Part shown: positions 1 through 13,544 of the stretch, one piece after another | How positions within the stretch are numbered: the first letter of the stretch is position 1 | How the letters are laid out: every line of letters starts with the position of its first letter | Program-made: the position numbers and the translations under genes | The notes under the pieces: model-generated | The model's input: the letters and a program-made list of their open reading frames with translations, nothing else | Database searches by the model: none | Told to the model about the DNA's origin: nothing | From: Candidatus Poribacteria bacterium | Lineage (GTDB): Bacteria > Abyssobacteria > SURF-5 | Assembly: GCA_016215705.1 (NCBI GenBank) | Contig: JACRIR010000007.1 | Span: 1 to 13,544 of the forward strand | Reading direction: 5' to 3' | Length of the DNA: 13,544 bases

Positions 1-1088
1 TATTGTTTCCTCTGAAGCTGGACATGAACCCGAGAACGACGCTGGCCACGATTCCACCCGGATTTGCAGCATTGCTCTCGTTGATTGTGCTTTTGACCGT
101 TGTGGCATCTGTTCCGTGGGTTCTGAAGCGGTCTCGCGAGACGGCTTTCGGGATGCTTTGGTTTCTGGTCGTGTTTGCCCCCATGAGCAATATCATCCCC
201 ATATTCCCTGACGTCGCCGGCCGCGAGCTGTTCACGCCCATTCATTTTCTGTACCTTCCCTCGATAGGAATATTTCTCTGCGCAGGGATCGGGTTGAGAA
301 CTTTGGACAGAAGGCGAAAAGCGACAGGAAAAAAGCGAAGGGGAAACGATATCGAGGTTTACAGCGCGGTACACATCGAGCAGCGGTTCTTCCGCGCGAG
401 TGCGATGGGGTGTATCACTTGCGTGGTGGCCATCTTCTGTGTACTCTCGATCCGCCGCAACACAATATGGGAAAACGATACCAGACTTTTCGAGTACATG
501 ACGCGGATGCACCCTGAGAACGCGGGCGCGCGTGTCAACCTTGGGAACGCCTACCTTGGCGCGGGCAGAGAATTTGATGCGCTGAAAGAATTCAAGGAGG
601 CCGTCCGTCTTGACCCGAACCTGGCCCAAGCGCACAACGCGCTCGGTTTGGCTTATCTCAACATGGGGTCTGCCAGCGAGGCTATAGTGGAACTCCGCAA
701 GAACACAGAACTCGATCCATCCAATTCCGGCGCATTCTCGAATCTGGCGGTCGCGTATGTGCAAAAAGGGATGCTTCCCGAAGCGATAGCGGCGGGTATG
801 AACGCTATCGAAAGGGCGCCGACCAGTTCCGAGACGCATACGAATATGGGGCTTATTTACATGGAAGCGCGAAAGCTCGATGAAGCTCAAAAAGAGCTTG
901 AACTTGCGCTCGATTTCAACCGTGGTGATGCAGAGGCATACAATGCGCTGGGAGCGCTGCATTTCTACCGGAAAGATTATGCGAAGGCTCGTTGGAACTG
1001 GGAACAGGCCCTTCGCATCAGGCCCGATCTTCAGGAGGCTCGCGAGAATCTGGAAAGCCTGGAAAAGAAGGCCGGTGAGCGGGATTGA
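1..1088 (+). CDS. TMTC-like membrane protein with five C-terminal TPRs (5' end outside window)
   Basis: Partial gene: the frame is open from the first base and its opening residues (FPLKLD, then PRTTLAT) align with the middle of the next gene (FPFKLD, PRTALAT), so the true start lies upstream. Visible residues, numbered from the codon at base 3, show membrane segments near 20-41, 48-68, 80-98 and 135-150, then five consecutive 34-residue TPRs at about 173-342, ending at a TGA. The neighbour's intact N-terminal half resembles the GT-C/TMTC family, whose animal members are O-mannosyltransferases; the catalytic part is not visible here. A membrane-bound glycan-transfer or assembly role is only inferred. 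Compared with its paralogue it carries about 25 extra residues (near 105-130) between two membrane segments. The TPRs probably bind proteins. Confidence 0.85.
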   Translation, partial: LFPLKLDMNPRTTLATIPPGFAALLSLIVLLTVVASVPWVLKRSRETAFGMLWFLVVFAPMSNIIPIFPDVAGRELFTPIHFLYLPSIGIFLCAGIGLRTLDRRRKATGKKRRGNDIEVYSAVHIEQRFFRASAMGCITCVVAIFCVLSIRRNTIWENDTRLFEYMTRMHPENAGARVNLGNAYLGAGREFDALKEFKEAVRLDPNLAQAHNALGLAYLNMGSASEAIVELRKNTELDPSNSGAFSNLAVAYVQKGMLPEAIAAGMNAIERAPTSSETHTNMGLIYMEARKLDEAQKELELALDFNRGDAEAYNALGALHFYRKDYAKARWNWEQALRIRPDLQEARENLESLEKKAGERD

Positions 1089-1123
1089 CAAGGATTCAGG
1101 GAAAAGAAGAAAAAAGAAGAAGA

Positions 1124-1215
1124 GACTTTCTTAACCACGGATTGACACGGATTAACACGGATTTTGGAAAAGAAGAAGAAGAAGAAGAAGAAAGAAAAGA
1201 AGAAGAGGTGGATCA
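1124..1215 (+). repeat. 92-bp direct repeat, copy 1
   Basis: The block runs from GACTTTCTTAACCACGG through three tandem decamers of the ACGGATTRAC type, then a GAA/AAG triplet tract (about 1168-1206), then GAGGTGGATCA. It matches copy 2, 170 bp downstream, at all positions except 1155 (A here, G at 1325). Such near-identity suggests recent duplication. The ACCACGGATTAACACGGATT core is a short interspersed repeat type that I recall from many unrelated environmental genomes. Confidence 0.9.
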
Positions 1216-1227
1216 CGAATGTCACAA

Positions 1228-1260
1228 ATCGCGCAAGGCGCGAGACGAATTACACGAATA
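1228..1260 (+). repeat. CGAATTACACGAATA-type repeat, left copy
   Basis: These 33 bases match the reverse complement of 13327-13359 at 30 of 33 positions. The shared core is GCGCGAGACGAAT followed by YACACGAATA. The two copies lie in opposite orientation about 12 kb apart, so this is an interspersed repeat rather than local duplication. Confidence 0.8.
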
Positions 1261-1293
1261 GAGCAGAACACGAATCCGGGGAGAAGAAGAAGG

Positions 1294-1385
1294 GACTTTC
1301 TTAACCACGGATTGACACGGATTAGCACGGATTTTGGAAAAGAAGAAGAAGAAGAAGAAGAAAGAAAAGAAGAAGAGGTGGATCA
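1294..1385 (+). repeat. 92-bp direct repeat, copy 2
   Basis: Second copy of the 1124-1215 block, 91 of 92 bases identical. Its GAA/AAG triplet tract (about 1338-1376) is in frame with the following gene, so an upstream TTG at 1334 would add a poly-lysine leader to that protein; I treat this leader as spurious. The end of the block, GAGGTGG (1375-1381), could serve as a ribosome binding site for a GTG at 1391. Confidence 0.9.
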
Positions 1386-1414
1386 AGACCGTGAGTAGTA
1401 CAGGAACTGGGAGC

Positions 1415-3508
1415 ATGACGAGCGATATGGATTCACGTTTTCGCGGGAATGACATAGGCGACCAAGTTGACAGGCTCGTTCCACTGCTTTTCATTATTGG
1501 CCTTGTATTCCTGAGCAATCTGAACGCGCTTACAGCGGGTTTTGTTTGGGATGACAGAGCCCTTATCATTGATAATGCGCTTATCAAGCGGCCGGACTCA
1601 ATTCTGTTGTTTTTCAAGCAGCCGTTTCTTGGGATGTACTACCGGCCCGTGGTCATGATCTCTTTCGCCGTGGAATATGCGATATGGGGCCTGAGACCAT
1701 TCGGGTTTCATCTGACAAACCTTCTGCTTCATGCCGCAAACGCGCTGCTTGTGTTCGGGCTCCTCAAGGACGTGACTCGCAACCGGCAAACCGCGCTGCT
1801 CGCAGCACTGCTTTTTGCCGCACACCCGGCGCACAAAGGCGTGGTTGCCGTTCCAGATCGGACGGGCGTTCTTTCGGCTTTTTTCATGCTGATGTCGCTC
1901 TTCTTGTATGTCAAGCACCGCTATCTGACAAACGCGAGTCGGCCCGAGAATTTTTCGCGATTGTTGGATGCAGAGGGCGCAGTCCCGCCGAGGCGGGATA
2001 CCCCCACAAAGGGGCATCTAGGTTGTCGAATATGGGGCCGGGGAACAAATCGTGGTCCCCTGCTTTTATTCGCGGCTTCAGTAATTTCGGCCGGCCTCGG
2101 CTTCTTCTCGAAGGAAGAGGTAATTGCGCTTCCACTTGTCATAGTATTGGTCGACGTGCTCATTCTCGAAGAAGGCATTTTGAATCCTTCCCGCTGCGCC
2201 AAAGACGGGGCAGTTGCCAATTTGCTCGCACAATCGGGGCGAGAACAGGATGGGGATACTGTGCGTAAGGGCGACCCGGTGAGCCGCCCCTTCAGAACGC
2301 TTACGATCAGGCTGCAGAATCTACGAAGCAACGTACTCAGGTGTATTCCTTTCTTTTTGGTCGCGGCCATTTATTTGTGGGTCCGGGCGCATGTTGTCGG
2401 CGCCGGGTCAGGCGGACTCGTTTCTGCCTTTTTGATCGAGCCGGCGAGGAGACTTATCACGATTCCAGCGGTACTGGCCGATTACTTACTTCTTCTCCTG
2501 TTTCCATTCAAGCTGGATTATGAGCCGCGCACAGCTCTTGCGACTTCGATATTCGAGCCGCGAATACTGATTTCCGGTCTTTTTTTGCTTGCACTTTTTG
2601 CCTCGATCCCACATCTGGCCCGAAAGAATAGGGGCGCCCTTTTTGGCATCCTTTGGTATCTGATTGTCTTTATCCCGATGAGTAATATTTTGCCAATATA
2701 TCCTGAGGCGGCGGATAGCATTCTGTTCACTCCGATCCATTTCTTATATTTGCCGTCCATCGGTGTTTTTCTTCTTGCCGCAAAAGGGATGGGATGGATT
2801 CTTCGCGCAGTCTCGAGGGAACGCCGGGCGGCTATTCTTCCGTTCTGCTTCGTTCTCTTTGCTTTTTCAATTCTGTCGGCGAGCCGAAATGCGGTTTGGA
2901 AAGATGAGGTCAGCCTCTACCGCTACATTCTGGGGATGCATCCGGAAAACCATAGGATGCACGCGAATCTGGGCAATGTGTATCTTGAACGGGGCCAAGT
3001 GGATGCGGCGATAGCCGAGCTTGACTGCGCTGTGGCTTTCGCTCCGGATGTGGCATGGTATCGCAACAGTCTCGCACTTGCGTATCAGGCGAAGGGCCAG
3101 CCCGAGAAAGCAACCCGGCAGTTTTTGGAAAGTTTGCGGCTCAATCCGGGGTCGGAAATGGTTTACACGAATCTGTCGGCAGTATACAGGTCGCAGGGAA
3201 GACTTCCTGAGGCGATAAGCGCCGGCAAGAAGGCAATTATGCTCAATCCATCGAGCGCAGCCGCTCATGTGAATCTGGCTCTGACATACAAAGACGCAGG
3301 TGCTTTTGCCGAGGCGGAACAACAGTTTGCGACGGCGCTTCGTCTTGACCCTGGTTCGCCGGAAGCTCATAATGGGCTTGGCATTGTTTATGCTTCTCAA
3401 AGAAACTACCGGGAAGCCCGAGAAGAGTGGGAAACGGCGCTTCGCCTGCGTCCCGACATGCCCGAAGCTCGCGAGAATCTGGAGAGGCTGAAGGCTATGG
3501 GGCTCTGA
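1415..3508 (+). CDS. TMTC-like multi-spanning membrane protein with five TPRs
   Basis: About 697 residues: many membrane segments, then five 34-residue TPRs (about 513-682). N-terminal features match the GT-C/TMTC O-mannosyltransferase-like family: an acidic pair in FVWDD (46-47) in the first external loop, YYRPVV, FHLTNLLLHAANALL, AAHP...DRTGVLSAFF and FSKEEVIALP. Activity on dolichol- or polyprenyl-linked sugars is plausible but unproven. Start: ATG 1415 has AGGA 9 bases upstream; GTG 1391 (after GAGGTGG) and ATG 1427 are alternatives. The region upstream of 1415 is repeat DNA. Two loops (residues about 171-215 and 258-298) are much longer than expected and contain palindromic DNA, and the N-terminus MDSRFRGNDI is itself a translated repeat. 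It is a tandem paralogue of the preceding gene; the shared C-terminal half is highly similar. Confidence 0.88.
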   Translation: MTSDMDSRFRGNDIGDQVDRLVPLLFIIGLVFLSNLNALTAGFVWDDRALIIDNALIKRPDSILLFFKQPFLGMYYRPVVMISFAVEYAIWGLRPFGFHLTNLLLHAANALLVFGLLKDVTRNRQTALLAALLFAAHPAHKGVVAVPDRTGVLSAFFMLMSLFLYVKHRYLTNASRPENFSRLLDAEGAVPPRRDTPTKGHLGCRIWGRGTNRGPLLLFAASVISAGLGFFSKEEVIALPLVIVLVDVLILEEGILNPSRCAKDGAVANLLAQSGREQDGDTVRKGDPVSRPFRTLTIRLQNLRSNVLRCIPFFLVAAIYLWVRAHVVGAGSGGLVSAFLIEPARRLITIPAVLADYLLLLLFPFKLDYEPRTALATSIFEPRILISGLFLLALFASIPHLARKNRGALFGILWYLIVFIPMSNILPIYPEAADSILFTPIHFLYLPSIGVFLLAAKGMGWILRAVSRERRAAILPFCFVLFAFSILSASRNAVWKDEVSLYRYILGMHPENHRMHANLGNVYLERGQVDAAIAELDCAVAFAPDVAWYRNSLALAYQAKGQPEKATRQFLESLRLNPGSEMVYTNLSAVYRSQGRLPEAISAGKKAIMLNPSSAAAHVNLALTYKDAGAFAEAEQQFATALRLDPGSPEAHNGLGIVYASQRNYREAREEWETALRLRPDMPEARENLERLKAMGL
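1431..1450. repeat. Degenerate ATTCCCGC...GCGGGAAT palindrome at the 5' end of the TPR gene
   Basis: ATTCACG and CGCGGGAAT flank a short T-rich loop; translated, this gives SRFRGND. It is a degraded version of the perfect palindrome at 13180-13206. The repeat either supplies the N-terminus of the 1415-3508 protein or lies just before its real start. Confidence 0.6.
1983..2060. repeat. Cluster of three palindromes inside the TPR gene
   Basis: Three inverted repeats occur back to back: TCCCGCC/GGCGGGA (1983-1989 and 1992-1998, perfect), CCCC/GGGG (2002-2005 and 2011-2014), and GGGGA/TCCCC (2040-2044 and 2056-2060). They are read in frame as part of a predicted loop between two membrane segments (VPPRRDTPTKGHLG and onward). 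TMTC-like relatives have a short loop here, so an in-frame repeat insertion is inferred. Confidence 0.65.
2267..2292. repeat. GGGCGACC-type palindrome inside the TPR gene
   Basis: GGGCG (2269-2273) pairs with CGCCC (2285-2289), flanked by AAGG and CCTT. It resembles interspersed repeats of the AGGGGCGACCC...CGCCCCT type. It is translated as RKGDPVSRPF in the second long loop of the TPR protein. Confidence 0.5.
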
Positions 3509-3582
3509 AGGCCGGGCATAAACCATTCAGCCGTAGTGAATTCCGTAACAACTGCGCATAGGTCTTGCTCTTCACCTCATAT

Positions 3583-3610
3583 GGGTCGAGCGCATTCTAG
3601 AATTCGACCC
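3583..3610. other. Inverted repeat in spacer upstream of the 83-aa gene
   Basis: GGGTCGA (3583-3589) and TCGACCC (3604-3610) are perfect 7-bp arms around a 14-base loop containing the palindrome ATTCTAGAAT. A second, weaker inverted repeat follows: GGACAG (3630-3635) with CTGTCC (3651-3656). No T-run follows either, so a simple terminator is unlikely; an operator or RNA structure in the leader is possible. The rest of the 169-bp spacer (3509-3677) shows no gene or clear promoter. Confidence 0.4.
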
Positions 3611-3677
3611 TAGTTGATGGAACACGATCGGACAGGCCCGTGACTCGTGTCTGTCCCTGACGGAGATTGAACCAGAT

Positions 3678-3929
3678 ATGGCGTGGGAAAGTGTCAAAAA
3701 TGGCGTTGTCAGACGGTGTACGCTGGAGGACGGCACAGCGGTCGTTGCGTTCATAAAGGGTGGAGGCGGGACGGAAGAGCTCAGTTTCTGCGCTGACACG
3801 AGTGATATCGAGAACATCGGGTCTGAATCCCAGAAATTGGGGAATCTTTCTGATTTCATTGAACGTCTTCGGCCGGAGGACCTCATAGATATATGTTGCC
3901 TGGCGGACAAGCTATCGAAGGCAGTGTGA
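3678..3929 (+). CDS. Hypothetical 83-residue protein, coupled to the HDOD gene
   Basis: Small acidic protein that I do not recognise. It begins MAWESVKNGVVRRC, has a glycine run (IKGGGGTEEL) and ends in a predicted helix, LRPEDLIDICCLADKL; three cysteines are in the last 45 residues. There is no signal peptide or membrane segment. ATG 3678 has GGAG 12 bases upstream. Its last codons GTG TGA contain a GTG (3926) that overlaps the stop as GTGA and is in frame with the HDOD gene, and the HDOD ATG candidate lies only 17 bases after the stop, which points to translational coupling. Together with the HDOD and FlgM-like genes it probably forms a signalling/motility operon; a regulatory partner role is only an inference. 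Confidence 0.65.
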   Translation: MAWESVKNGVVRRCTLEDGTAVVAFIKGGGGTEELSFCADTSDIENIGSESQKLGNLSDFIERLRPEDLIDICCLADKLSKAV

Positions 3930-3946
3930 GCACAGGGAAAGGCCCA

Positions 3947-4810
3947 ATGAGGAACGAAGAGCTGACAGAGAGTATAGTGGAAAGCATCGTCACACTGCCG
4001 ACGATTCCGTCGATTGTCACCGCGCTCAACACCGTGATTGCGGTGCCAAACTCATCGGCTGTGGATGTCGCAAACATTATTTCGCGCGATCCTTCTACGG
4101 CCACGAAAGTGCTCAGGCTTGCGAACTCTGCGTATTACGGATTGCGGAGCAAAGTGAGCACGATAAACCATGCCGTGACAATGCTGGGATTCAACATTGT
4201 GCGCAATCTGGTACTGACGGCGTCAATCTTGAACGTTTCCACAGGCGCGAATATAGCAGGTTTGTTCGAGCGTGAGAAATTCTGGCATCACTCGCTTGGG
4301 GTAGGCGTTACGGCGCGGATTGTGGCAAGAGAGGCATTCCCCGAGATGCGTCGCCAGTCTGATGAGTTTTTTATTTGCGGCTTATTGCACGACCTTGGGA
4401 AGATCATTTTGTTGCAGCACTTACAGCCAAAATTCGAGGAAGCTCTCTTACTCAGCCGGGATCAGGCCCTGCCTTTGTACGAGGCTGAGAAAATCTCAAT
4501 CGGTTGCACTCATGCGGACGTGGGTGGCCTTTTGGCGAAGCGGTGGAACCTCTCGAAAGAGATCATAGCGGCCGTGGCATACCATCACGATCCGGCAGAG
4601 GCGTGGCAAGAACAATACCGGTATGTGGCCGTGACGCATCTTTCCGATTTTATTGCGCGCGCGAAGGAGATAGGTGTCGGAGGCGGCGCCAATCCGCGTC
4701 TTGCGCGAGAGGCATGGGACGCCGTGGGCCTGAGCAAACAGAAGATTTCAGCGATACTTACCGAAATAGATAACTCTTTGAATTTACAAGAGTTGCAGAT
4801 GACCCCATAG
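3947..4810 (+). CDS. HDOD-domain signalling protein
   Basis: About 287 residues, nearly all one HDOD domain, a helical relative of HD phosphohydrolases used in bacterial signalling and motility control. Landmarks: LPTIPSI near the start, ISRDPSTATKVLRLANSAYYG (about 46-66), WHHS (113-116), CGLLHDLGK with the HD pair at 148-149, CTHADVGGLLAKRW (187-200) and AYHHDP (211-216). Many HDOD domains have lost the HD pair; here it and the flanking histidines are kept, so catalysis cannot be excluded. Start: ATG 3947 follows AGGGA by 8 bases and gives the usual family N-terminus. GTG 3926 (GTGA overlap with the previous stop) and ATG 3893 (GGAGGA 12 bases upstream, overlapping the previous gene) are alternatives. 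The gene downstream is FlgM-like. Confidence 0.88.
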   Translation: MRNEELTESIVESIVTLPTIPSIVTALNTVIAVPNSSAVDVANIISRDPSTATKVLRLANSAYYGLRSKVSTINHAVTMLGFNIVRNLVLTASILNVSTGANIAGLFEREKFWHHSLGVGVTARIVAREAFPEMRRQSDEFFICGLLHDLGKIILLQHLQPKFEEALLLSRDQALPLYEAEKISIGCTHADVGGLLAKRWNLSKEIIAAVAYHHDPAEAWQEQYRYVAVTHLSDFIARAKEIGVGGGANPRLAREAWDAVGLSKQKISAILTEIDNSLNLQELQMTP

Positions 4811-4850
4811 ATACTCTTGAGTTTTCTCCCGATTCCCTGTAGAATTGTGT

Positions 4851-4878
4851 TAAAGAAAACGTTGAGCCATGCCGATAT
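4851..4878 (+). promoter_or_regulatory. Candidate FliA (sigma-28) promoter of the flgM-like gene
   Basis: TAAAGAAA (4851-4858) and GCCGATAT (4871-4878) are separated by 12 bases. The FliA consensus is TAAAGTTT, about 11 bases, then GCCGATAA; here 7 of 8 bases of the -10 element match, and TAAAG of the -35. It lies in the 128-bp gap between the HDOD stop and the FlgM-like start. flgM is a known FliA target in enterobacteria, so the location makes sense. It is a motif call only. Confidence 0.6.
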
Positions 4879-4938
4879 ATATACCGGACAGTGGACTGAA
4901 GGTGAAGTGAATCGCTTGGTGACGAGGGGGTGAATCGA

Positions 4939-5229
4939 GTGGACATAAGCAGGATAGACGGAGTCCATGAGCCGTCCCTGAATCAACCTCGCCAGGAAGA
5001 GCAACGCCGGCGCAACGTCGAAGAAGTGCGCGCAAGCGACGGGGTGAATATTTCGGCCGAAGCGCAGAAGGCGGCGGAAGTGGCTCGATTGGTTTCACTC
5101 GCCAAGAAGATTCCTGACATCAGAGAGGACAAAGTGGCTGAAGCCAAAGAGCGGGTAGACTCCCAGCCTTCACAAGACCAGGCCGTCAACCGCACGGTTG
5201 CGCAACGCCTATTGGATGATCTGCTGTAG
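4939..5229 (+). CDS. flgM: FlgM-like anti-sigma-28 factor
   Basis: A 96-residue protein with FlgM layout: a disordered polar N-terminus (DISRIDGVHEPSLNQPRQ...), a VNISAEAQKAAE motif matching the SLS-type motif of FlgM, and a C-terminal helical region (IREDKVAEAKERVDS, then VAQRLLDDLL) like the sigma-binding half of FlgM. Family members bind FliA until the flagellar hook is complete and are then exported. Start: GTG 4939 has a GAGGGGG ribosome site about 8 bases upstream; GTG 4930 would overlap that site and is less likely. A FliA-like promoter lies at 4851-4878, implying feedback. No flagellar structural gene is in view. Its similarity is to the pattern of the family rather than to one specific protein. 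Confidence 0.75.
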   Translation: MDISRIDGVHEPSLNQPRQEEQRRRNVEEVRASDGVNISAEAQKAAEVARLVSLAKKIPDIREDKVAEAKERVDSQPSQDQAVNRTVAQRLLDDLL

Positions 5230-5250
5230 TATCCGGTTGTGTAAATCTGC

Positions 5251-5280
5251 ATCATAGCGCACTGCCGTATGATTTTCTTC
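5251..5280 (+). terminator. Weak candidate terminator between convergent genes
   Basis: ATCATA (5251-5256) and TATGAT (5268-5273) form a perfect 6-bp stem with an 11-base loop, followed by a T-rich stretch (TTTCTTC). It sits in the 54-bp gap where the plus-strand flgM-like gene meets the minus-strand cyclotransferase gene. The stem is AT-rich, so stability is doubtful. Confidence 0.3.
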
Positions 5281-5283
5281 CGT

Positions 5284-6213
5284 TTATCTGTGTGACAGTT
5301 CGGATGTTGAGCGTTTGATTATATCCGGCAGCGATTCGAGCAGAACATCGCCGACTATTTTCAGTGAACGCGGACTCACGTTCTCGATGGAGTCAGCGGG
5401 GCTGTGCCAGTACTCGTTGGTCCGAGAGGCGGGGCCATAGTGAAAGTCTATTATATCGAGGGCCGGGACGCCGTGTTTAAGGAAGGGGACATGGTCGTCC
5501 TGGATAGATTCGGGATTATCAGTGAAATATGCCGTATAGCCCAGCTTTCTTGCCTTGTCCCATACGAGTTTTCTGAGCCATGACGTTGAGAGCAATTCCA
5601 CCTCGAGTGACAGATGCGCATCGCCTACCATGTCGAGCAGGATCATGGCCCTCACTTTTGATATCTCTCCGGATTCCGTCAAACGGCTGACCATGTGCCG
5701 GCTGCCGTAGAGGCTGTCGGCAGCGGACCATCTCACAAGGGCTTCTTCACCATCGAGGAAGACAAGCCATATCGTTGCCGGATTCTTGCGCGCAGGCAGT
5801 ATTCGCGCGAGTTCCAATAACACAGCCACCCCGGACGCCCCGTCATTAGCGCCGACAAAAGGAAACTCTTTGATGAGTTTCGTGTCGTAGTGAGCGCCTA
5901 TTATGATGATCGAGTCGGCCGGGCCGGGAATGACTCCCACCATATTTTTCATTTGTTTCAGTCCGAGGGGAGTATGGGAAACAAAGGGCTGTTCGCGCAC
6001 ATCGAGTCCGCTGCGCGCCAAAGCGTCCATGATATATGCTTGCGCCTGGCTTGAACCGGGACTGTCAGGAGGTCGGGGGCCGATTTCGACTAGCGCGTGC
6101 AGATGCGAGAATGCGCGGGCGGCATCAAAGGAAGCGGACGAGTTGTCAGCCACGCAGACGGCGGCGAAAAGCAAGCAACATCCGACAATAAGATGTCCTC
6201 CGAGACGCTTCAC
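5284..6213 (-). CDS. Animal-type glutaminyl-peptide cyclotransferase (M28 fold)
   Basis: 309 residues with a Sec signal peptide (about 1-22), so exported. The family converts N-terminal glutamine to pyroglutamate using one zinc. GAHYDTK (106-112), GANDGAS (121-127, D124), DGEE (154-157) followed by RWSAADSLYGSRHM, LLDMVG (D194), QDDHVPFLKHGVP (238-250) and YWHSPAD (268-274) match the order seen in human glutaminyl cyclase. By that alignment the zinc ligands are D124, E157 and H270, and E156 and D194 are catalytic. The position of human His319 seems to be Asp253 here. An M28 aminopeptidase is the alternative, but single-zinc spacing and the DSLYGSRH and DDHVPFL stretches favour a cyclase. GTG start at 6213, preceded by AGGG, overlaps the M48 stop by 4 bases (GTGA). 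It is the last gene of the envelope operon. Confidence 0.8.
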   Translation of the reverse strand: MKRLGGHLIVGCCLLFAAVCVADNSSASFDAARAFSHLHALVEIGPRPPDSPGSSQAQAYIMDALARSGLDVREQPFVSHTPLGLKQMKNMVGVIPGPADSIIIIGAHYDTKLIKEFPFVGANDGASGVAVLLELARILPARKNPATIWLVFLDGEEALVRWSAADSLYGSRHMVSRLTESGEISKVRAMILLDMVGDAHLSLEVELLSTSWLRKLVWDKARKLGYTAYFTDNPESIQDDHVPFLKHGVPALDIIDFHYGPASRTNEYWHSPADSIENVSPRSLKIVGDVLLESLPDIIKRSTSELSHR

Positions 6214-7226
6214 ATTGCCCTCAGGGCTGCAATTCGTTCCTGCGTGGAGGGGTGGGTGGAGAACATATTGTTGAGAAAGCTTGCGTGTTCACGAAGCGGG
6301 TTTATTATATACAGGTGCGCAGTGCTCTTGTTTGCAACCTCGAGCGGCTCGGTGTCTGCATCGAGTTTTGCGAGCGCGCTTGCCAGTCCCTCGGGGTAAC
6401 GAGTGAGGAAAGCGCCATGGGCATCGGCAAGCAACTCGCGTCGCCGTGAAACGGCAAGGCGGAGCAGTTGCGCGATAATAGGCGCCAGAATCGCCATGAC
6501 GATTGCCAGCACTAATATGATGGCCTGTGCCTGCCCGCCGCCGCGTCCGCCTGAGCGGTCTCTTCTTCTGCTCCTTCGGGGCGCGTACCAGAAGGTTCTG
6601 AACATCCAATCGCTCAAGAGCGCAACTACACCCACGAGAACGACGGCAACCGAGCCGAGGAGTGTGTCGTAGTTCTTGATGTGAGACATCTCATGAGCAA
6701 GCACGCCTTCGATTTCGCGCCGATTCAACTTTTGCAGCAAACCTGTCGTTACAGCAATGACTGCATGCTCCGGATTTCTGCCGGTTGCAAAGGCGTTGGG
6801 GGCGGTGTCCTCGATGACATAGAGTTTCGGCTGTGGAATGCCGGCGGCTATGGAGAGGCCTTCGACGGTGTTCTTGAGAAACAGATGTTCTTCGCGTGTC
6901 GCGGGGCGGGCGGCGCTCATTCTGAGGATTATCTTATCGCTGTTGTAATAGCCTATGAGTGGGCCGAGAGTCGCAAACACGAGTGCAAGGGGCAGCGCGA
7001 CTATCCTGGCGCCGGGGGCGACTTCCTCAAAAAGCAGCGCAAGTGTGAAAATGAGGATAATGAAGAACGCACATAACGCTACCGATTTGCGGCGGTTCGA
7101 GCTCATTTGTTCGTAGATATTGGAGGAAGACGGGAGGAGAAGCACGAGCACGGGGATGAAGAGGAAAAGAACAAGGAACGTGATGATGATTCTGTTTGCG
7201 GTAATCCATTCAGGCAGACTGTTCAT
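6210..7226 (-). CDS. htpX: HtpX-like M48 membrane zinc metalloprotease
   Basis: About 338 residues. The zinc motif HEMSH is at 178-182 and the third ligand glutamate is in RRRELLADA (E264), as in HtpX proteases that degrade misfolded membrane proteins. Two N-terminal membrane segments and a third near 80-93 precede the catalytic domain; two more lie at about 189-206 and 234-258, flanking an Arg/Gly-rich cytoplasmic stretch (APRRSRRRDRSGGRGGG). The domain PNAFATGRNPEHAVIAVTTG and the final FSTHPSTQERI are typical. Start: ATG 7226; a TTG at 7247 would extend into an inverted repeat and has no clear ribosome site. The stop overlaps the start of the cyclotransferase gene. LemA lies just upstream; LemA-HtpX pairs are common. 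Confidence 0.88.
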   Translation of the reverse strand: MNSLPEWITANRIIITFLVLFLFIPVLVLLLPSSSNIYEQMSSNRRKSVALCAFFIILIFTLALLFEEVAPGARIVALPLALVFATLGPLIGYYNSDKIILRMSAARPATREEHLFLKNTVEGLSIAAGIPQPKLYVIEDTAPNAFATGRNPEHAVIAVTTGLLQKLNRREIEGVLAHEMSHIKNYDTLLGSVAVVLVGVVALLSDWMFRTFWYAPRRSRRRDRSGGRGGGQAQAIILVLAIVMAILAPIIAQLLRLAVSRRRELLADAHGAFLTRYPEGLASALAKLDADTEPLEVANKSTAHLYIINPLREHASFLNNMFSTHPSTQERIAALRAM

Positions 7227-7241
7227 TCTGTCGTCTCTCAA

Positions 7242-7322
7242 CCGCAAAGACGCAAAGAAATCTCTATTTCCACTGAAGATGACGGGATTTCTTTTTTCTT
7301 CGCGCCCTTTGCGTCTCTACGG
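7242..7322. repeat. Inverted repeat (AAAGACGCAAAG type) between lemA and htpX
   Basis: Arms CCGCAAAGACGCAAAG (7242-7257) and CTTTGCGTCTCTACGG (7307-7322) are complementary at 14 of 16 positions, with a 49-base centre. I recall this sequence type as a widespread intergenic repeat. It fills most of the 114-bp gap within the operon and could fold in the mRNA, altering relative expression of lemA and htpX. Confidence 0.75.
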
Positions 7323-7340
7323 CTAATGTCCTCCTCTTTT

Positions 7341-7892
7341 TCAATCGAATTTGACGCGCACAGCCTCGCGCTCGGCCGGAACAGTGATCTCGAACATATC
7401 CTGCGGTCCGAAGTTGAAGATTCCCGCTATGATGTTGGTGGGGAATTTTTCGCGAAGGATGTTGTATTGCATGACATTATCGTTATAGAACTGCCGCGCG
7501 TAAGCTATTTTCCCTTCGGTTCCGGCCAGTTCTTCCTGGAGCATCATGAAGTTCTGGTTCGCCTTCAGTTCGGGATAGCTCTCGGCCACGGCGAAAAGAG
7601 TTTTCAGGGCGCCGGTGAGTTGATTCTCGGCCTGGCCCTGGTCCTTCACGCTCGAGGCCCCGATTGCGCGCGCACGAGCTTCGGTTACTTTCTCGAACAC
7701 GTCGCGCTCGTGCTTTGCGTATCCTTTCACGGTCTCGACGAGATTGGGGATAAGATCGTATCTCCTCTTGAGTTGCACGTCGATTTGCGCCCAAGCGTTC
7801 TTTATGCGGTTGCGCAACGTGACCAGGCGGTTGTACGCCAAGACAACATAGAAGACGAATACGACAAAAACAATGAGTACAATCATTCCCAT
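7341..7892 (-). CDS. lemA: LemA family membrane protein
   Basis: 183 residues, the usual LemA length. One N-terminal membrane segment (about 4-20) is followed by the family helical bundle: [47 protein letters not shown], then [32 protein letters not shown] and [12 protein letters not shown], and a C-terminal [11 protein letters not shown]. LemA proteins are small envelope proteins of unclear biochemical role, often encoded beside HtpX proteases or TPM-domain proteins. The ATG at 7892 has a strong GGGAGG ribosome site 8-9 bases upstream. It lies 35 bases downstream of the Pro/Arg-rich protein gene. Confidence 0.95.
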
Positions 7893-7927
7893 TCCGTTGA
7901 CCTCCCTTTGGAATATGTGAGTTTCGG

Positions 7928-8635
7928 CTATATCAAATGCGAATCGGCGTCGCGGAGCGCCATTGGGGGCCCGAGGATTTCACCAATGACAAAGCCCCTT
8001 CGTATCTCGTTCAAATCCCATTCGACAAAGTCCATGAGATCAAGAACAGGCGGTTTCTCCCTGACACCGCGCTCGACTGTTTCTCTCACTCTGCGGCGCT
8101 TCGGGGTCTCGGATGGCGACGCCCATTGCCGGGTTGCGGGCGCAGGCGGCGGCTCCTGTGGGCGCGCGACGCGCCGCTGTTCAACTCTTGCCGGGCGCCT
8201 ATGCTCGATGGGCGGTTCCCGTCGCTGCAATACCGTTATCTTCTCTTCGCGTCCCTCCTCTTCGAGCTTCGGCATGGGACGTTCAGTATATGCGGCTTCC
8301 TTCGTGGGCGCCGGTCTGTGCGTAGGCGGGGCCATTTGCCGTTTCCGTTTCAGTCCTTCGAGCAACAGGCGCTGCAATTCGTCTTCGGGTCGGGCGGGAG
8401 CAGGGCGGCCCGTTTGGCGGAGCGCAGGTTCGCGCAGATCAGGCGAGGGCGGCGGCAGTGGCTGTTCACGCGGCGCGTTCTCTCCTCGTCTCGGCGCCAC
8501 ATTAGGAGAACGCTTCAACAATTCCGGTTGTTTGCGAGCCTCCTTTTCCATGCGAGCCCGGATTTCCTCGGAGACTGATTGGAGCACCTTCCAGATGATC
8601 CAAATGAAGAAGAGGGAGAGTATGAACTTGTTCAC
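7928..8635 (-). CDS. Membrane-anchored Pro/Arg-rich protein with conserved-looking C-terminal tail
   Basis: 235 residues, no named family recognised. An N-terminal membrane anchor ([20 protein letters not shown]) is followed by about 170 residues rich in Pro, Arg, Glu and Gln that should be disordered and cytoplasmic. The last 35 residues change character: [30 protein letters not shown] recall tails of the form LRRxxxxxEILGPPxALR in short proteins near flotillin genes of planctomycetes and related groups; this is from memory. GTG start at 8635 lies 2 bases after the floA stop, so it is translationally coupled to FloA, and lemA follows after 35 bases. A scaffold or adaptor for the FloA/LemA module is an inference. 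Confidence 0.75.
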
Positions 8636-8637
8636 GT

Positions 8638-9645
8638 TTATTCGTCTTTCTTATCTGTCTTGCCCATGTCAGAGATGGATTGTCGCATCGATGTGTCGGA
8701 TTGAACGTTGCGCAGCTTGTAGTAGTCCATCACGCCGAGGTTGCCCGAACGGAAGGCATCGGCCATAGCTCGCGGTATTTCGGCCTCAGCCTCGACGACT
8801 TTCGCGCGCATCTCGACGACCTGCGCGCGCATTTCCTGTTCGCGAGCGATGGCCATTGCGCGGCGTTCTTCGGCCTTCGCCTGAGCTATCTGCTTGTCGG
8901 CCTCGGCCTGTTTCGCCTGCAGTTGCGCGCCAATGTTTTCGCCTACGTCGACGTCAGCTATATCTATGGAAAGAATCTCGAAGGCAGTCCCTGCATCGAG
9001 GCCCTTTTCGAGAACCTTTCGAGAGATCATATCGGGATTTTCGAGCACCTTTTTGTGTGTCTCGGCGGAGCCGATGGTAGTGACGATGCCTTCGCCGACG
9101 CGCGCAATAATGGTTTCCTCTGTGGCGCCGCCGACGAGACGCTCGAGGTTCGCGCGCACGGTCACGCGCGCTTTGGCTTTAAGCTGGATTCCGTCCATCG
9201 CCACGGCGTCGACAGTGTCTTTTCCCTTGCGCGGGTCCGGCGTATCAATCACTTTTGGGTTCACGCTGGTCTGCACCGCATCGAGCACGTCGCGACCGGC
9301 GAGGTCGATGGCGCAAGCGCGGGCGAAGCTCAGCGGGATATTCGCCTTGTTCGCGGCTATCAGCGCCTGCACTACGCGAACGACGTTTCCATGCGCAAGG
9401 TAGTGTGCTTCGAGGTCGTTCGTCTCGACAGGGAGTCCGGCCTTGATCGCCATAATGCGAGTGTCAACAATAACTCCCGCGCTCACCTTGCGGAGGGTCA
9501 TGCCGATGAGGCTCGCGAAGCCGACGTGTGCATCGGAGAGGACCGCGCGCAGCCAAAGCCCGAAGAACCGCGCGACCACTGCGATGATGGCGAGAACAAT
9601 ACCGATGATTACGAGACTAATGATTAAGGTTATGCCTGCTCCCAT
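8638..9645 (-). CDS. floA: Flotillin-like protein FloA (SPFH family, UPF0365)
   Basis: 335 residues, matching FloA/YqfA of Bacillus (about 331) along the whole length. There is an N-terminal membrane-inserted segment (5-27). Family stretches include [18 protein letters not shown] (81-98), [10 protein letters not shown] (112-121), [25 protein letters not shown] (157-174), [10 protein letters not shown] and [16 protein letters not shown] coiled-coil of the [20 protein letters not shown] type spans about 245-292, and VMDYYKLRN follows. FloA forms membrane microdomain assemblies. About 10 residues rich in charge ([10 protein letters not shown], 137-146) are extra relative to Bacillus. ATG 9645 has GGAAGGA 7-9 bases upstream and lies 4 bases after the short NfeD stop. 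The NfeD-FloA pairing parallels yqeZ-yqfA of Bacillus. Confidence 0.96.
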
Positions 9646-9649
9646 GAGG

Positions 9650-10141
9650 TTATCCTTCCTTTCCTGAAGTTAGAGTCCCCTGCTGACGCACGACTATCCG
9701 GTTCCCCTCGACGGCCACGACTTTCACTATCCTGTCTTTATCGATGAATGTTCCCTCGGAAACGACGTCCAGACGTTTCGAGTCGAACTGAGCGATGCCG
9801 GCGGGCCGTAGTTGTGTGAGGCTTGTGCCTTCGCGGCCAATGTAGTTTTCCATTTGTTCGGTGCCGCTGAAGCCCAGTTTCTTGTCGAGCCTGCGGCCGA
9901 GTATGAGAAGTTTGCCCGCGCGGGTTTGCGGGAAGTATTTTATGCCAACGAGAATGATGACCGTTGCGGCGATGAGCTCACCGACAACGATCCAGAATCC
10001 TATCTCGCGGTACTGCCGGAACGCAAGCACCATGCTGCCGACAATGAGGAGGGCGCCGACAACGCCGAAGACACCGCCAGGCAAGAACAGTTCGAGAAGA
10101 ATGAGTGTGATCGCTACGAGAAACAGCACGAGGACAAGCAT
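9650..10141 (-). CDS. Short NfeD-family protein (membrane + OB fold, no protease domain)
   Basis: 163 residues. Three membrane segments lie at about 1-20, 22-43 and 48-67, followed by an NfeD C-terminal OB-fold: [19 protein letters not shown], then [23 protein letters not shown]. NfeD OB domains are thought to work with SPFH proteins such as FloA, whose gene begins 4 bases downstream. It resembles the C-terminal half of the full-length NfeD upstream (GRSGTSLTPLRPAG) but lacks the ClpP-like domain. ATG 10141 has AGGAG 7 bases upstream. The 186-bp leader holds a heptamer repeat and a hairpin, so it may have its own promoter or rely on read-through. Confidence 0.9.
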
Positions 10142-10162
10142 TGCCAGACTCCTGGGAAACCC

Positions 10163-10204
10163 GGTTTAGGGCTTAGGGTTCATGGTCTATGGTTTATGGT
10201 TAAA
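10163..10204 (+). repeat. Six tandem heptamers of GGTTTAK type
   Basis: The stretch divides exactly into six 7-base units: GGTTTAG, GGCTTAG, GGTTCAT, GGTCTAT, GGTTTAT, GGTTAAA. It lies upstream of the short NfeD start, in its mRNA leader. The unit resembles a plant telomere heptamer, but a short degenerate array like this is more likely an interspersed or slippage-derived repeat. Confidence 0.75.
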
Positions 10205-10233
10205 CCGCAAAGAACCTTGCCATTGTTTCCCTT

Positions 10234-10270
10234 AATTTGGGGACACGATGAGGCATCATGTCTCCGAATT
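10234..10270. repeat. REP-like hairpin with GGGGACAC arms
   Basis: Arms AATTTGGGGACACGATG (10234-10250) and CATCATGTCTCCGAATT (10254-10270) pair at 14 of 17 positions around a 3-base loop (AGG). I recall hairpins with AATTCGGGGACAC ends in genomes that encode REP-associated (Y1) transposases; no transposase is in this window. It lies between the 124-aa gene and the short NfeD gene. Confidence 0.7.
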
Positions 10271-10327
10271 GAGGGATGTTTCTTGCACCGTTAACCCGCT
10301 ACAGGCGTGGTCACGCGCTCGCCTTTC

Positions 10328-10702
10328 TCATCCGGAGCCGCCGGTGCTTTCAGTCGTGCTCGGAACGTTCTTCTCGCGTCGTTTCGCTTCCTCCTGAGCG
10401 ATAGTTGACTCCATGAATGCGATGAGTTGTCCCAATTCGATGACAACCCGTTGGGTGACCTTCATTTTGTCAGCGGGGTCAACCGATTTCGTGTCTTCGA
10501 TTTCTTCAAATGAGTCAAGGAGCACGGTTTGCTCACCCGCAGACAATTCCTTTGTCTTTGACAGAAGCTTATTGAAGCGGCTCACGAAAGGCCCGCACGA
10601 GTAATAGCCGGCTCCCTTCTGTTGGATGTCTTGTATGTCATTGCGGAGCACACGCGCCATTGAAAGCAATGTTTTCCTCTCATCGAGAGACCCGGCCATC
10701 AC
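10328..10702 (-). CDS. Hypothetical 124-residue helical protein in the nfeD operon
   Basis: I do not recognise this family. It is mostly helical and charged (DERKTLLSMARVLRNDIQDIQ, FVSRFNKLLSKTKELSAGEQTV, VTQRVVIELGQLIAFMESTIAQEEAKRR) with a Ser/Thr/Gly tail and no signal or membrane segment, so likely cytoplasmic. GTG 10702 overlaps the NfeD stop as GTGA, and an ATG at 10699 is the next codon. A strong AGGAGG site lies about 7 bases before GTG and 10 before ATG. The tight overlap with the NfeD protease gene argues for a shared function, perhaps a cytoplasmic partner, but nothing in the sequence proves it. Confidence 0.7.
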   Translation of the reverse strand: MMAGSLDERKTLLSMARVLRNDIQDIQQKGAGYYSCGPFVSRFNKLLSKTKELSAGEQTVLLDSFEEIEDTKSVDPADKMKVTQRVVIELGQLIAFMESTIAQEEAKRREKNVPSTTESTGGSG

Positions 10703-12312
10703 GCGGTTCCCTCCTTCGCTTCCGCCACGAACAGCTTGTTTCCAACGACCTTGACTACTTTGAGCGGCCTGTCCTTCTCGACGAATTCACCCTGTGTCTG
10801 TACCTCGAAGGGCTCGCCGGCGATGATTGCCCGGCCGGCCGGCCTCAAGGGGGTCAGACTCGTTCCGGACCGCCCGACCAATGGCTCAAGACTCTCGGAC
10901 GAGACGTACCCTTCCTTTGCGGATTCGCTTGTTGAGAGCACAAGCATTTTCTTGAGCCTCGATTCGGGAAATGTCTTCCATACGATCACGATGCCTGCGG
11001 TCACCGCGAGCAGGAAAAAGATGATTGTGCCGAGGGCGGTGTTCAGCGCTTGATAGTCCCACGAGAATTCCGGTATCGGCTTTCTCACGAGGGCAAGATA
11101 AATGCCCAATAGGATGCAGACGAAACCCGATATGCCGGTGATTCCGAAACCGGGAATGACCAGTATTTCGAGGAGCAGCAGGCCAATCCCGATCACGAAC
11201 AAGAGCACATCAATCGAGCTCGCCAGGCCGGCCAGGTAATGGCCACCGAAGAAAAGGAGGAGACACGTCACTCCAACTGTTCCGCTCAGGCCCCATCCGG
11301 GTATTTGCAGTTCAAAGAAGAGGCCGAGCACCCCGAACGTAAGCAGAAGGCCCGAGACGATCGGATGTGTCAGGAACCGCACGATGTTTTCCGACCACGA
11401 CACTTTGGCCGTTGCCATATCGGCCGGATCAAAGTTGAGGGAGCGTACGAGTTCATCGAGCGAGGCGGGCGTCGATTGTGCGAGGCCGAGCCTCGATGCC
11501 TCAGCCGACGTCATCGTTAAGAGCTTCCCCTTGGGCGAGATAACCTCGAGATTGGCGCTTTTGTTTTCGCCTTGCAGCTTTGCCGCTTCGGCCGATGAAA
11601 TCGGCTTCGCTTGCTCACCTTCCACAAGCGCCATTACTTCCACATCGGGATCGACCATCGCTTCGGCCAACATCGGCGAATGGCCATTCCGTTCGGCAGT
11701 AGCCCGGAATTCTCCCCGGACAAACGATATTTCCTTTTCGCCCAATTGTTGTTTTTCTCCCATCGAGCCAATGCTGACCGGCGTGGCGGCCCCGATTGTG
11801 CTGCCGGGCGCCATCGCAATCCTCTTGGTTGCGAGACAAATGAGCGCGCCTGCGGAGATTGCCCGCTTATTTACGTAAGCAGTAGTTGGAATCTTGCAGC
11901 TTTCGAGGGCATCACGAATGTCGAGAGCCGCGTCGACACGCCCGCCGAGCGTGTTAAGTTCAATGATGACAGCGGCGGCGCCATCGCGCTGCGCATTTTC
12001 GAGGGACCGTTCGACAAAGTATGCCAGCCCAAGGTCGATTATTCCGTGGACGGGAATTGTCACGACGCTCTTTCGATTCGTATCCGCCGCGCTCGCGGCA
12101 GGGAATAGTCCGGACGTAAAACGGTTCAGGGCTCCCTGTTCCGGATTCCCGGTTAGAGAGGCGAACGCGGGCAAGAGAGTCAGGAAGAGCGCCACGCACA
12201 ATGAAACCGCCGGCACGCCCACATGCCGCGACGAATGCCAGGGATAACGGTGGGTAGGCGCGGAAGTGATTGGTCGAGAGGCATCCGTGCTCCGCCACAA
12301 GAGCATTGCCAT
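10699..12312 (-). CDS. nfeD: NfeD-family membrane-bound serine protease (full length)
   Basis: About 537 residues. A signal anchor (about 31-52) is followed by a ClpP-class protease domain: VHGIIDLGLAYFVERSL, LNTLGGRVDAALDIRDAL (119-136), NKRAISAGALICLATKRIAM (148-167, probable nucleophile S153) and GEKEISFVRGEFRATAE (probable general base K193). Then come five or so membrane segments (about 317-450) and a C-terminal OB fold (GRSGTSLTPLRPAG, 480-493). Archaeal NfeD cleaves stomatin; here FloA is the likely SPFH partner. Start: a promoter at 12382-12411 puts transcription at about 12375, so the longer frame starting TTG 12411 cannot be right. ATG 12312 (AGGGAAG 12 bases upstream) or ATG 12306 is chosen instead. 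The stop overlaps the next gene. Confidence 0.92.
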   Translation of the reverse strand: MAMLLWRSTDASRPITSAPTHRYPWHSSRHVGVPAVSLCVALFLTLLPAFASLTGNPEQGALNRFTSGLFPAASAADTNRKSVVTIPVHGIIDLGLAYFVERSLENAQRDGAAAVIIELNTLGGRVDAALDIRDALESCKIPTTAYVNKRAISAGALICLATKRIAMAPGSTIGAATPVSIGSMGEKQQLGEKEISFVRGEFRATAERNGHSPMLAEAMVDPDVEVMALVEGEQAKPISSAEAAKLQGENKSANLEVISPKGKLLTMTSAEASRLGLAQSTPASLDELVRSLNFDPADMATAKVSWSENIVRFLTHPIVSGLLLTFGVLGLFFELQIPGWGLSGTVGVTCLLLFFGGHYLAGLASSIDVLLFVIGIGLLLLEILVIPGFGITGISGFVCILLGIYLALVRKPIPEFSWDYQALNTALGTIIFFLLAVTAGIVIVWKTFPESRLKKMLVLSTSESAKEGYVSSESLEPLVGRSGTSLTPLRPAGRAIIAGEPFEVQTQGEFVEKDRPLKVVKVVGNKLFVAEAKEGTA

Positions 12313-12381
12313 GGATAGCGAATTCTTCCCTGCCCGATTGCCAGAAGCAAACAGCAAAGTGTTCGCGTTCACGATGCTGGA

Positions 12382-12411
12382 ATTATAGCGCATTTGAGAT
12401 TGAATGTTCAA
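12382..12411 (-). promoter_or_regulatory. Near-consensus sigma-70 promoter of the nfeD operon
   Basis: On the minus strand TTGAAC (12411-12406) and TATAAT (12387-12382) are separated by 18 bases. The -10 element is perfect and the -35 matches TTGACA at 4 of 6. Transcription should begin near 12375, about 63 bases before ATG 12312. This indicates that the nfeD operon is transcribed separately from the cyclo-ligase gene. Confidence 0.75.
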
Positions 12412-12524
12412 GTCAGCGCCGTCATGCCAGCGGTTCGTTGTTGCGGACGCCTAACAAACACACTCTTTTCAGATTTGTCAAAGCAAAGCGTTTCTGAGGC
12501 GCGTCGAACCCTGCAACCTGCGGT

Positions 12525-13130
12525 TTAGCTTTTGTCCATTTGAGGAGCACGGTAAGTACGTTGCTCAGTGATGAGAATGGAAACGGGAATGTCGTGGGAG
12601 TCGGCGGGGACTCGGTCAACGAGTTGGCCTTCGTAGGCGAGAGCGATTGAAGGGACGAGGGAGTTGACGAGAAGGCGGTCGTAGTAGCCGCCGCCGAAGC
12701 CGATGCGCCGGCAATGACGGTCGAATGCGACGCCCGGGACGATTATGACATTGGCCTCGGCGGGGTCGGTGGGGCGAACGGCATCCGGGCGCGGCTCGAG
12801 AAGTCCGAACTTCACGGTCACAAGCTCACCCATGTCCTTGAGTTCGGAAACGATGAGGTGGTTATTCACGAAATCGGTGACCGGCACAAGAGCCTTGACG
12901 CCTTTCGCGAGCGCGTCGCGAATCAGTGAATGCGTGTCGACCTCGTTTCCTTTGGCGGAAACATAGAAGAGAATGGTCTTCGCATTGGCGTACTCCGGAA
13001 GCGACTTGAGGGTGGCGGCAATCTGAGCCGATTTGGCGCGGGCTTCTTCAGACGGCAAGGCATTGCGCCAACGGATTTTCTCTTTGCGGATTGAGCGTTT
13101 CAGTTCTACGAGGTCGATGGAATGTTTCAT
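12525..13130 (-). CDS. 5-formyltetrahydrofolate cyclo-ligase
   Basis: About 201 residues, the usual family length. It converts 5-formyltetrahydrofolate and ATP to 5,10-methenyltetrahydrofolate, returning the storage form to the one-carbon pool. The N-terminal KRSIRKEKIRWRNAL is the ATP-binding helix region, NEVDTHSLI and VPGVAFDRHCRRIGFGGGYYDR (GFGGGYYDR at 144-152) are the family signature, and the protein ends SILITEQR. It is cytoplasmic. Start: ATG 13130; TTG 13157 would add nine residues but has little support. No strong ribosome site is seen for either. It stands apart from the envelope operon, which has its own promoter after a 112-bp gap. In proteobacteria 6S RNA often neighbours this gene; I do not see one here. 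Confidence 0.95.
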   Translation of the reverse strand: MKHSIDLVELKRSIRKEKIRWRNALPSEEARAKSAQIAATLKSLPEYANAKTILFYVSAKGNEVDTHSLIRDALAKGVKALVPVTDFVNNHLIVSELKDMGELVTVKFGLLEPRPDAVRPTDPAEANVIIVPGVAFDRHCRRIGFGGGYYDRLLVNSLVPSIALAYEGQLVDRVPADSHDIPVSILITEQRTYRAPQMDKS

Positions 13131-13179
13131 ATTTGAAAAGAAGATTCCTTTAACCAACCAACGGATTTCACGGATATGG

Positions 13180-13206
13180 ATTCCCGCCTTCGCCCTTGGC
13201 GGGAAT
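13180..13206. repeat. Perfect ATTCCCGCC/GGCGGGAAT palindrome
   Basis: Nine-base arms (13180-13188 and 13198-13206) flank a 9-base loop. It is the intact form of the palindrome degenerate at 1431-1450. Repeats of this ATTCCCGC...GCGGGAAT type are found in many bacteria (the Neisseria dRS3 element is similar in layout). It lies about 50 bases upstream of the cyclo-ligase start. Confidence 0.8.
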
Positions 13207-13225
13207 GATAAAAAGAGGCGCAGCT

Positions 13226-13254
13226 AGAGATTCTTCGCTTCGCTCAGAATGACA
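13226..13254. repeat. CHSERSEESL-type repeat
   Basis: AGAGATTCTTCGCTTCGCTC followed by AGAATGAC; on the minus strand it translates to CHSERSEESL. I recall this peptide from many spurious gene predictions across phyla, which marks it as an interspersed repeat. Family name and mechanism of spread are not known to me. Confidence 0.65.
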
Positions 13255-13274
13255 GAATGACGTTGAGAACCTTG

Positions 13275-13368
13275 TATTCGTGTAATTCGCATAATTCGTG
13301 GCATTTGTGATCCAAATCTTCTTTTGTATTCGTGTGATTCGTCTCGCGCTTTGTGCGATTCGTGTTCC
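13275..13368 (-). repeat. CGAATTACACGAATA-type repeat blocks, right copy
   Basis: Two related blocks. The second (13327-13359) is the reverse complement of 1228-1260 with 3 mismatches in 33 bases; the first (13275-13310) shares the TATTCGTGTAATTCG core, with variants of ATTCGTG repeated. Confidence 0.75.
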
Positions 13369-13473
13369 CATAGTCTTCTTGACGATGGCTGCTTCGCGGT
13401 AATCTGTACTACTCACATTCGAAATCTTGAATTCCTGTCGCGATTCTCATGACACACCGTATGAAACTCACAC

Positions 13474-13542
13474 GGGCGCAATGAATTGCGCCCCTACAGG
13501 AGTATACGAGGGATTTCCGTAGGGGCGCGATTCATCGCGCCC
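13474..13542. repeat. MITE-like inverted pair of GGGCGC hairpins
   Basis: GGGCGCAATGAATTGCGCCC plus CTAC (13474-13497) is the inverted counterpart of GTAG plus GGGCGCGATTCATCGCGCCC (13519-13542); arms match at 22 of 24 positions with a 21-base spacer. Each arm is itself palindromic. No transposase is visible; the layout resembles a small non-autonomous element or paired REP (BIME-like). Confidence 0.75.
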
Positions 13543-13544
13543 GA

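Follow-up and report, generated by a model that had tools for sequence, protein, structure and literature searches.

A GTAG-type REP read in frame within a membrane-protein loop of a Candidatus Poribacteria bacterium

In a membrane-protein gene from a Candidatus Poribacteria bacterium (GTDB lineage Bacteria; Abyssobacteria; SURF-5), we very probably see a decayed GTAG REP that lies in frame in a disordered TMTC-like loop, with about 80 nt more added to the same loop, and that is kept because added residues are tolerated there. Insertions of this type are already known: this case is real, it is explained, and it is another instance of an intragenic GTAG REP. The gene is in a stretch of 13,544 nt (contig JACRIR010000007.1, positions 1 to 13,544, of assembly GCA_016215705.1), which we call the window. 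Table 1 shows the features under discussion.

Table 1. Features of the host gene and its inserts (positions in the window; a dot means no strand)
Feature	Position	Strand	Evidence or remark
Host gene: multi-helix membrane protein with C-terminal TPR repeats	1415..3508	+	ORF list, Pfam, AlphaFold2, syntenic orthologue
CGTC-type palindrome, TGGATTCACGTTTTCGCGGGAATGACA on the + strand, encoding MDSRFRGND near the N-terminus	1428..1454	-	Genome copies
Longer loop 1	1935..2058 (approximate)	+	Net +38 residues relative to the orthologue; of the 114 added nt, about 81 show no recognisable repeat
GTAG-type REP, tag decayed to GTGG, GTGGGGGTATCCCGCCTCGGCGGGACTGCGCCC	1975..2007	-	Genome hits, BLAST, alignment of 11 copies
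Second palindrome of the sequence-only reading	2002..2014	.	Right edge of the REP plus the adjoining AAAGGGG; not a separate element; z = -1.30
Third palindrome of the sequence-only reading	2040..2060	.	No second copy; fold not above chance
Longer loop 2	2174..2311 (approximate)	+	Net +45 residues
Second GTAG-type palindrome, GTAAGGGCGACCCGGTGAGCCGCCCC, in loop 2, read as RKGDPVSRP	2265..2290	+	BLAST

We assign 1975-2007 to the GTAG superfamily, rather than to the Rickettsia palindromic elements, because of the type of its tag, its architecture and its dispersed copies. A search of the window's own genome for the REP core found 13 sites with at most 3 mismatches, including the one in the window, and a control search with the reversed pattern found none. 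Five of the sites, again including the window's, match exactly. (Genome counts are from pattern searches of a draft that is 92% complete and from the stretches that we examined; counts of intragenic copies for the REP families are from the examined stretches and are lower bounds.) An earlier, sequence-only reading of this DNA had proposed that a repeat element entered the gene, which depends on a second copy in the genome, and 12 further copies are present at this threshold.

The other copies have the sequence GTAGGGGCGTCCCGCCTCGGCGGGACTGCGCCC with minor differences, among them C-G stem pairs that have become A-T. In an alignment of 11 copies, which is a modest sample, 96.7% of the stem's cells are paired, with 4 double-sided changes; 1 of 500 shuffles and none of the slid controls reached the covariation score of these 11 copies. 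The terminal tag is GTGG in the window's copy; of the other 10 copies in the alignment, 8 have GTAG, GCAG or GTGG. The outer stem of the window's copy is decayed, with T and A at positions 8 and 9. The tag pattern TTNGTRGGGGCG has 74 matches in the genome (versus 2 for the control), and at least 63 of these have a hairpin according to a rough test, which overlooks bulged hairpins. The same pattern has 37 matches in genome G002 (control: 4) and 7 in the sister genome G001 (control: 7). Overall, the element has a terminal tag, a stem with paired changes, and many dispersed copies that are mostly intergenic, as do members of the GTAG superfamily.

Two more GTAG-type palindromes, CGGGCGCAATGAATTGCGCCCCTAC and GTAGGGGCGCGATTCATCGCGCCCG, lie in opposite orientation at the end of the window (13473-13543). 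At three other loci (L036, L041 and L042), several intergenic REPs have conserved flanks in common, and at L042 the REPs are about 114 nt apart. The shared flanks and the spacing suggest a larger composite unit. We also considered a tandem-repeat origin for the 114-nt spacing at L042, and no tandem array was called.

The sequence-only reading described three stacked palindromes at 1983-2060. We do find three inverted repeats here (GGGCGCAGTCCCGCCGAGGCGGGATACCCCCAC at 1975-2007, CCCCACAAAGGGG at 2002-2014, and GGGGAACAAATCGTGGTCCCC at 2040-2060), but only the first of them is repeated in the genome and folds better than expected by chance. Only the first is part of the element, and a start at 1983 cuts into it. 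The hairpin at 1975-2007 has an energy of -18.8 kcal/mol, and 3 of 200 dinucleotide shuffles were as good (z = -2.25). The folding of 2002-2014 and of 2040-2060 is no better than that of dinucleotide shuffles (z = -1.30 and -1.07), and the same is true of the whole of 1968-2066 (z = -0.91). The second palindrome takes its left arm from the edge of the REP. The third has no other copy with at most 3 mismatches in the window's own genome or in two relatives from the same family; it might be a decayed REP with a GCAG tag. We rejected the idea that the third palindrome is the second REP of a dimer, as it has no copy at this threshold in the three genomes and folds like the shuffles. We also considered that the whole inserted region might be a single dispersed unit, but nothing matches beyond the REP. 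Specifically, we found no convincing match to the 68 nt at 2008-2075 in the rest of the genome.

The open reading frame of the host gene (1334-3508) has an in-frame ATG at 1415, which gives about 697 codons, and it is open through the whole palindrome stretch. The protein is TMTC-like by its architecture only, with a multi-helix membrane domain followed by TPRs. We rely on architecture because Pfam reports only TPRs and the top Foldseek matches of the protein's model are TPR-type structures only. The AlphaFold2 model has a mean pLDDT of 87 and a pTM of 0.87. Helices on either side of each insert are modeled confidently, in agreement with the sequence-only reading that the flanking membrane segments are intact, and both inserts have a pLDDT of about 50. 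We take the loop with the REP to be exposed and disordered. At the start of the contig, which truncates it, is a tandem paralogue of the host gene, from the same family (3-1088). Between the two, just upstream of the host gene, is a 105-nt direct repeat (97%; 1114-1218 and 1284-1388) with GAAGAAG and ACACGGATT motifs. Portions of this repeat are found again elsewhere in the genome.

We compared the loops in an alignment of 29 members of the family. Loop 1 spans 86 residues in the window's protein, whereas the syntenic orthologue has 48 and 26 of the 28 relatives have 43-56, which bears out the claim that this loop is far longer than the family norm. Similarly, loop 2 has 78 residues, versus 30-35 in all 28 relatives. 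The orthologue is part of a syntenic gene pair in G001 and is 52-53% identical over the aligned columns. It lacks the long loop; that is, it does not share the loop with unrelated DNA. There is no exact empty site because this is the only clear orthologue and it is 53% identical. In GTDB contigs we found no closer orthologues, only distant matches (24-36%). The proposal that a repeat entered the gene and was tolerated as extra protein fits the REP, which is dispersed, in frame, and set between intact helices, but the REP is only 33 of the 114 nt added to loop 1. We also considered that loop 1 might be a tandem duplication of its flank, as there is a suggestive offset of 114 nt, and rejected this because 41% of shuffles were as good.

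The loop at the loop-1 site is also long, at 78 and 82 residues, in two paralogues from the window's own genome. One of the two, L097 (G000:C182), carries GGGGACAC there, a TTAATTCGGGGACAC-type palindrome with parts that recur in the genome. The other, L093 (G000:C148), has an unrelated short palindrome, with no copy in the stretches of the genome that we examined. A TTAATTCGGGGACAC-type element is also found in the window itself, at 10229-10250 (95% over 22 nt).

The host gene carries three palindromic elements of two superfamilies, at its N-terminus, in loop 1 and in loop 2. The sequence-only reading overlooked the GTAG REP in loop 2 and the CGTC palindrome at the N-terminus. By BLAST, the loop-2 element matches REPs in the same genome at L042, L090, L155, L161 and others. 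The CGTC-type element has 98 copies in the genome with at most 3 mismatches, and the control has none.

In-frame REPs are also found in other genes of this genome. In the gene for LexA (L169, G000:C259:958-1719), a REP of the same subfamily lies in frame between the DNA-binding domain and the S24 peptidase domain. The LexA orthologues in G001 and G002 lack the REP and are 70-79% identical on either side of the insert. On either side of the LexA REP is an imperfect direct repeat of 34 nt with 26 matching positions, and none of 2,000 shuffles were as good; around the loop-1 REP, a flanking direct repeat of this kind was not significant. By our reading of the two translations, the LexA REP is in a different frame from the window's, which on the + strand reads EGAVPPRRDTPT. 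This speaks against selection for one specific peptide. A gene for a family-B DNA polymerase (L170, G000:C259:4401-7052) contains a pair of in-frame REPs and other repeat inserts. These are absent from its orthologue in G001, which is 68-87% identical. The REP-containing inserts of LexA and of the polymerase are similar in size to the loop-1 insert. CGTC-type palindromes encoding MDSRLRGND lie inside long open frames at L207 and L208; one of these frames is long and beta-propeller-like, and another is for a membrane protein. Overall, the load of REPs in the host gene, and in several other genes of this genome, is unusually heavy.

REPs are thought to be moved by RAYTs, which vary in how strongly their activity depends on the GTAG tag (PMC8266576). 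In the sister genome G001, two RAYT-like genes for Y1 transposases have GTAG palindromes adjoining. L060 has two GTAG palindromes upstream and one that overlaps its 3' part, while at L058 two lie immediately before the start of the gene. These genes resemble the REPtron, or TnpA_REP (RAYT), in which an IS200-like transposase of the Y1 family lies beside GTAG REPs (PMC8266576, PMC2817692). In contrast, we found no RAYT of the REP-flanked subtype in the window's own genome (92% complete). A RAYT-like gene in G002 that is related to those of G001 (C93:7948-8694) is broken by three stop codons. The window's genome does contain other Y1 genes, and two of these, on C28, are bounded by inverted repeats CCGGGGACATAATACC / GGGGACAT. 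The CCGGGGACATAATACC boundaries, and GGGGACAC in loop 1 of L097, are like the GGGGWSAS termini of TIRYT elements (PMC3733652). However, these are absent from loop 1 of the window.

Among known palindromic elements, the closest parallel is the GTAG REP superfamily, which includes intragenic members such as those of Opitutus terrae (Di Nocera et al. 2013, PMC3733652). That work catalogued intragenic GTAG and CGTC REPs, many of them in replication and repair genes; 24 REP families have been published, and GTGG is the common terminal variant in GTAG-20 of O. terrae (PMC3733652). As in that superfamily, we see a terminal GTAG or GTGG, a hairpin stem, single and paired dispersed copies that are mostly intergenic, some copies in frame within genes (including genes for replication and repair), and, in the sister genome only, REP-flanked RAYT-like genes. 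The differences are that the host lineage is another one, for which a search for relatives gave two genomes from the same family, that the stem contains an inner hairpin with an unpaired CTG bulge, and that one gene here has three palindromes from two superfamilies. The sequence-only reading had likened the insert to the Rickettsia palindromic elements. The behavior is comparable, in that a palindromic repeat is tolerated in frame in a coding gene, but the class is not: the palindromic elements of R. conorii are reported to have a CGTC tag (PMC3733652), while the elements in loops 1 and 2 are GTAG-type. The MDSRFRGND element at the N-terminus is CGTC-type by its sequence.

We propose that loop 1 was entered by a GTAG REP, and that the REP was probably moved by a RAYT not seen in this assembly. 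The copy that survives is in frame and its non-tag end comes first, so the gene reads the tag as its reverse complement. Of the 74 tag-matched elements in the genome, 71 have at least two open frames when read this way round. The disordered loop would tolerate the extra residues, which would be why the REP persists. We infer that a RAYT moved the REP, that the protein is made and working, and that the added residues serve no function themselves. The other 81 of the 114 added nt may be a decayed repeat, a duplicated flank (as for LexA, though not significant here) or an older loop.

We also considered that the loop was already long, as an older trait of this protein in its lineage, and that the REP landed in it later, in which case most of the additional length does not come from the REP. 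The 81 added nt that are not repeat fit this idea, as do the two paralogues with 78 and 82 residues at this site. However, the loop is short in the orthologue and in 26 of the 28 relatives, one of the two long-loop paralogues also has a dispersed palindrome there, and REP-containing inserts of similar size are found in LexA and the DNA polymerase. We consider this explanation somewhat unlikely. We think it quite improbable that the insertion inactivated the protein, so that the gene is decaying and its open frame is temporary. There are three palindromic elements in one gene, and the tandem paralogue at 3-1088 could cover the function, but about 697 codons have no stop, the TPR region and motifs are intact, and every insert is in frame and located in a loop of the predicted structure.

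Alternatively, the REP might be retained as an RNA or DNA element. Translational pausing, mRNA processing, and serving as a target for gyrase or a transposase are among the roles proposed for intergenic REPs (PMC3733652), and the first palindrome does form a stable hairpin (-18.8 kcal/mol). But its tag and outer stem are decayed in this copy, and the region as a whole folds no better than shuffles, so we give this little credence. Finally, a chance palindrome in a GC-rich coding stretch would account for the second and third palindromes, but for the first palindrome it is refuted by the copies across the genome (control: 0), and as an explanation of the insert it is almost certainly wrong.

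The best-known cases of in-frame capture of REP palindromes are those of Rickettsia (CGTC type) and Opitutus (GTAG type). Our findings extend such capture to another, little-sampled lineage. Here, one membrane protein has captured palindromes three times, and LexA and a DNA polymerase have captured them as well and have close orthologues that are free of inserts. LexA is a clean before-and-after pair for studying the origin of such inserts and whether function changes with them. We also speculate, though we think it unlikely, that within this lineage the loop is a recurrent landing place, which different palindromic families entered independently in several TMTC-like paralogues and in neighboring loops, with flanking sequence duplicated or added. 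If so, then repeats related to Y1 transposases would steadily supply new disordered segments to these proteins.
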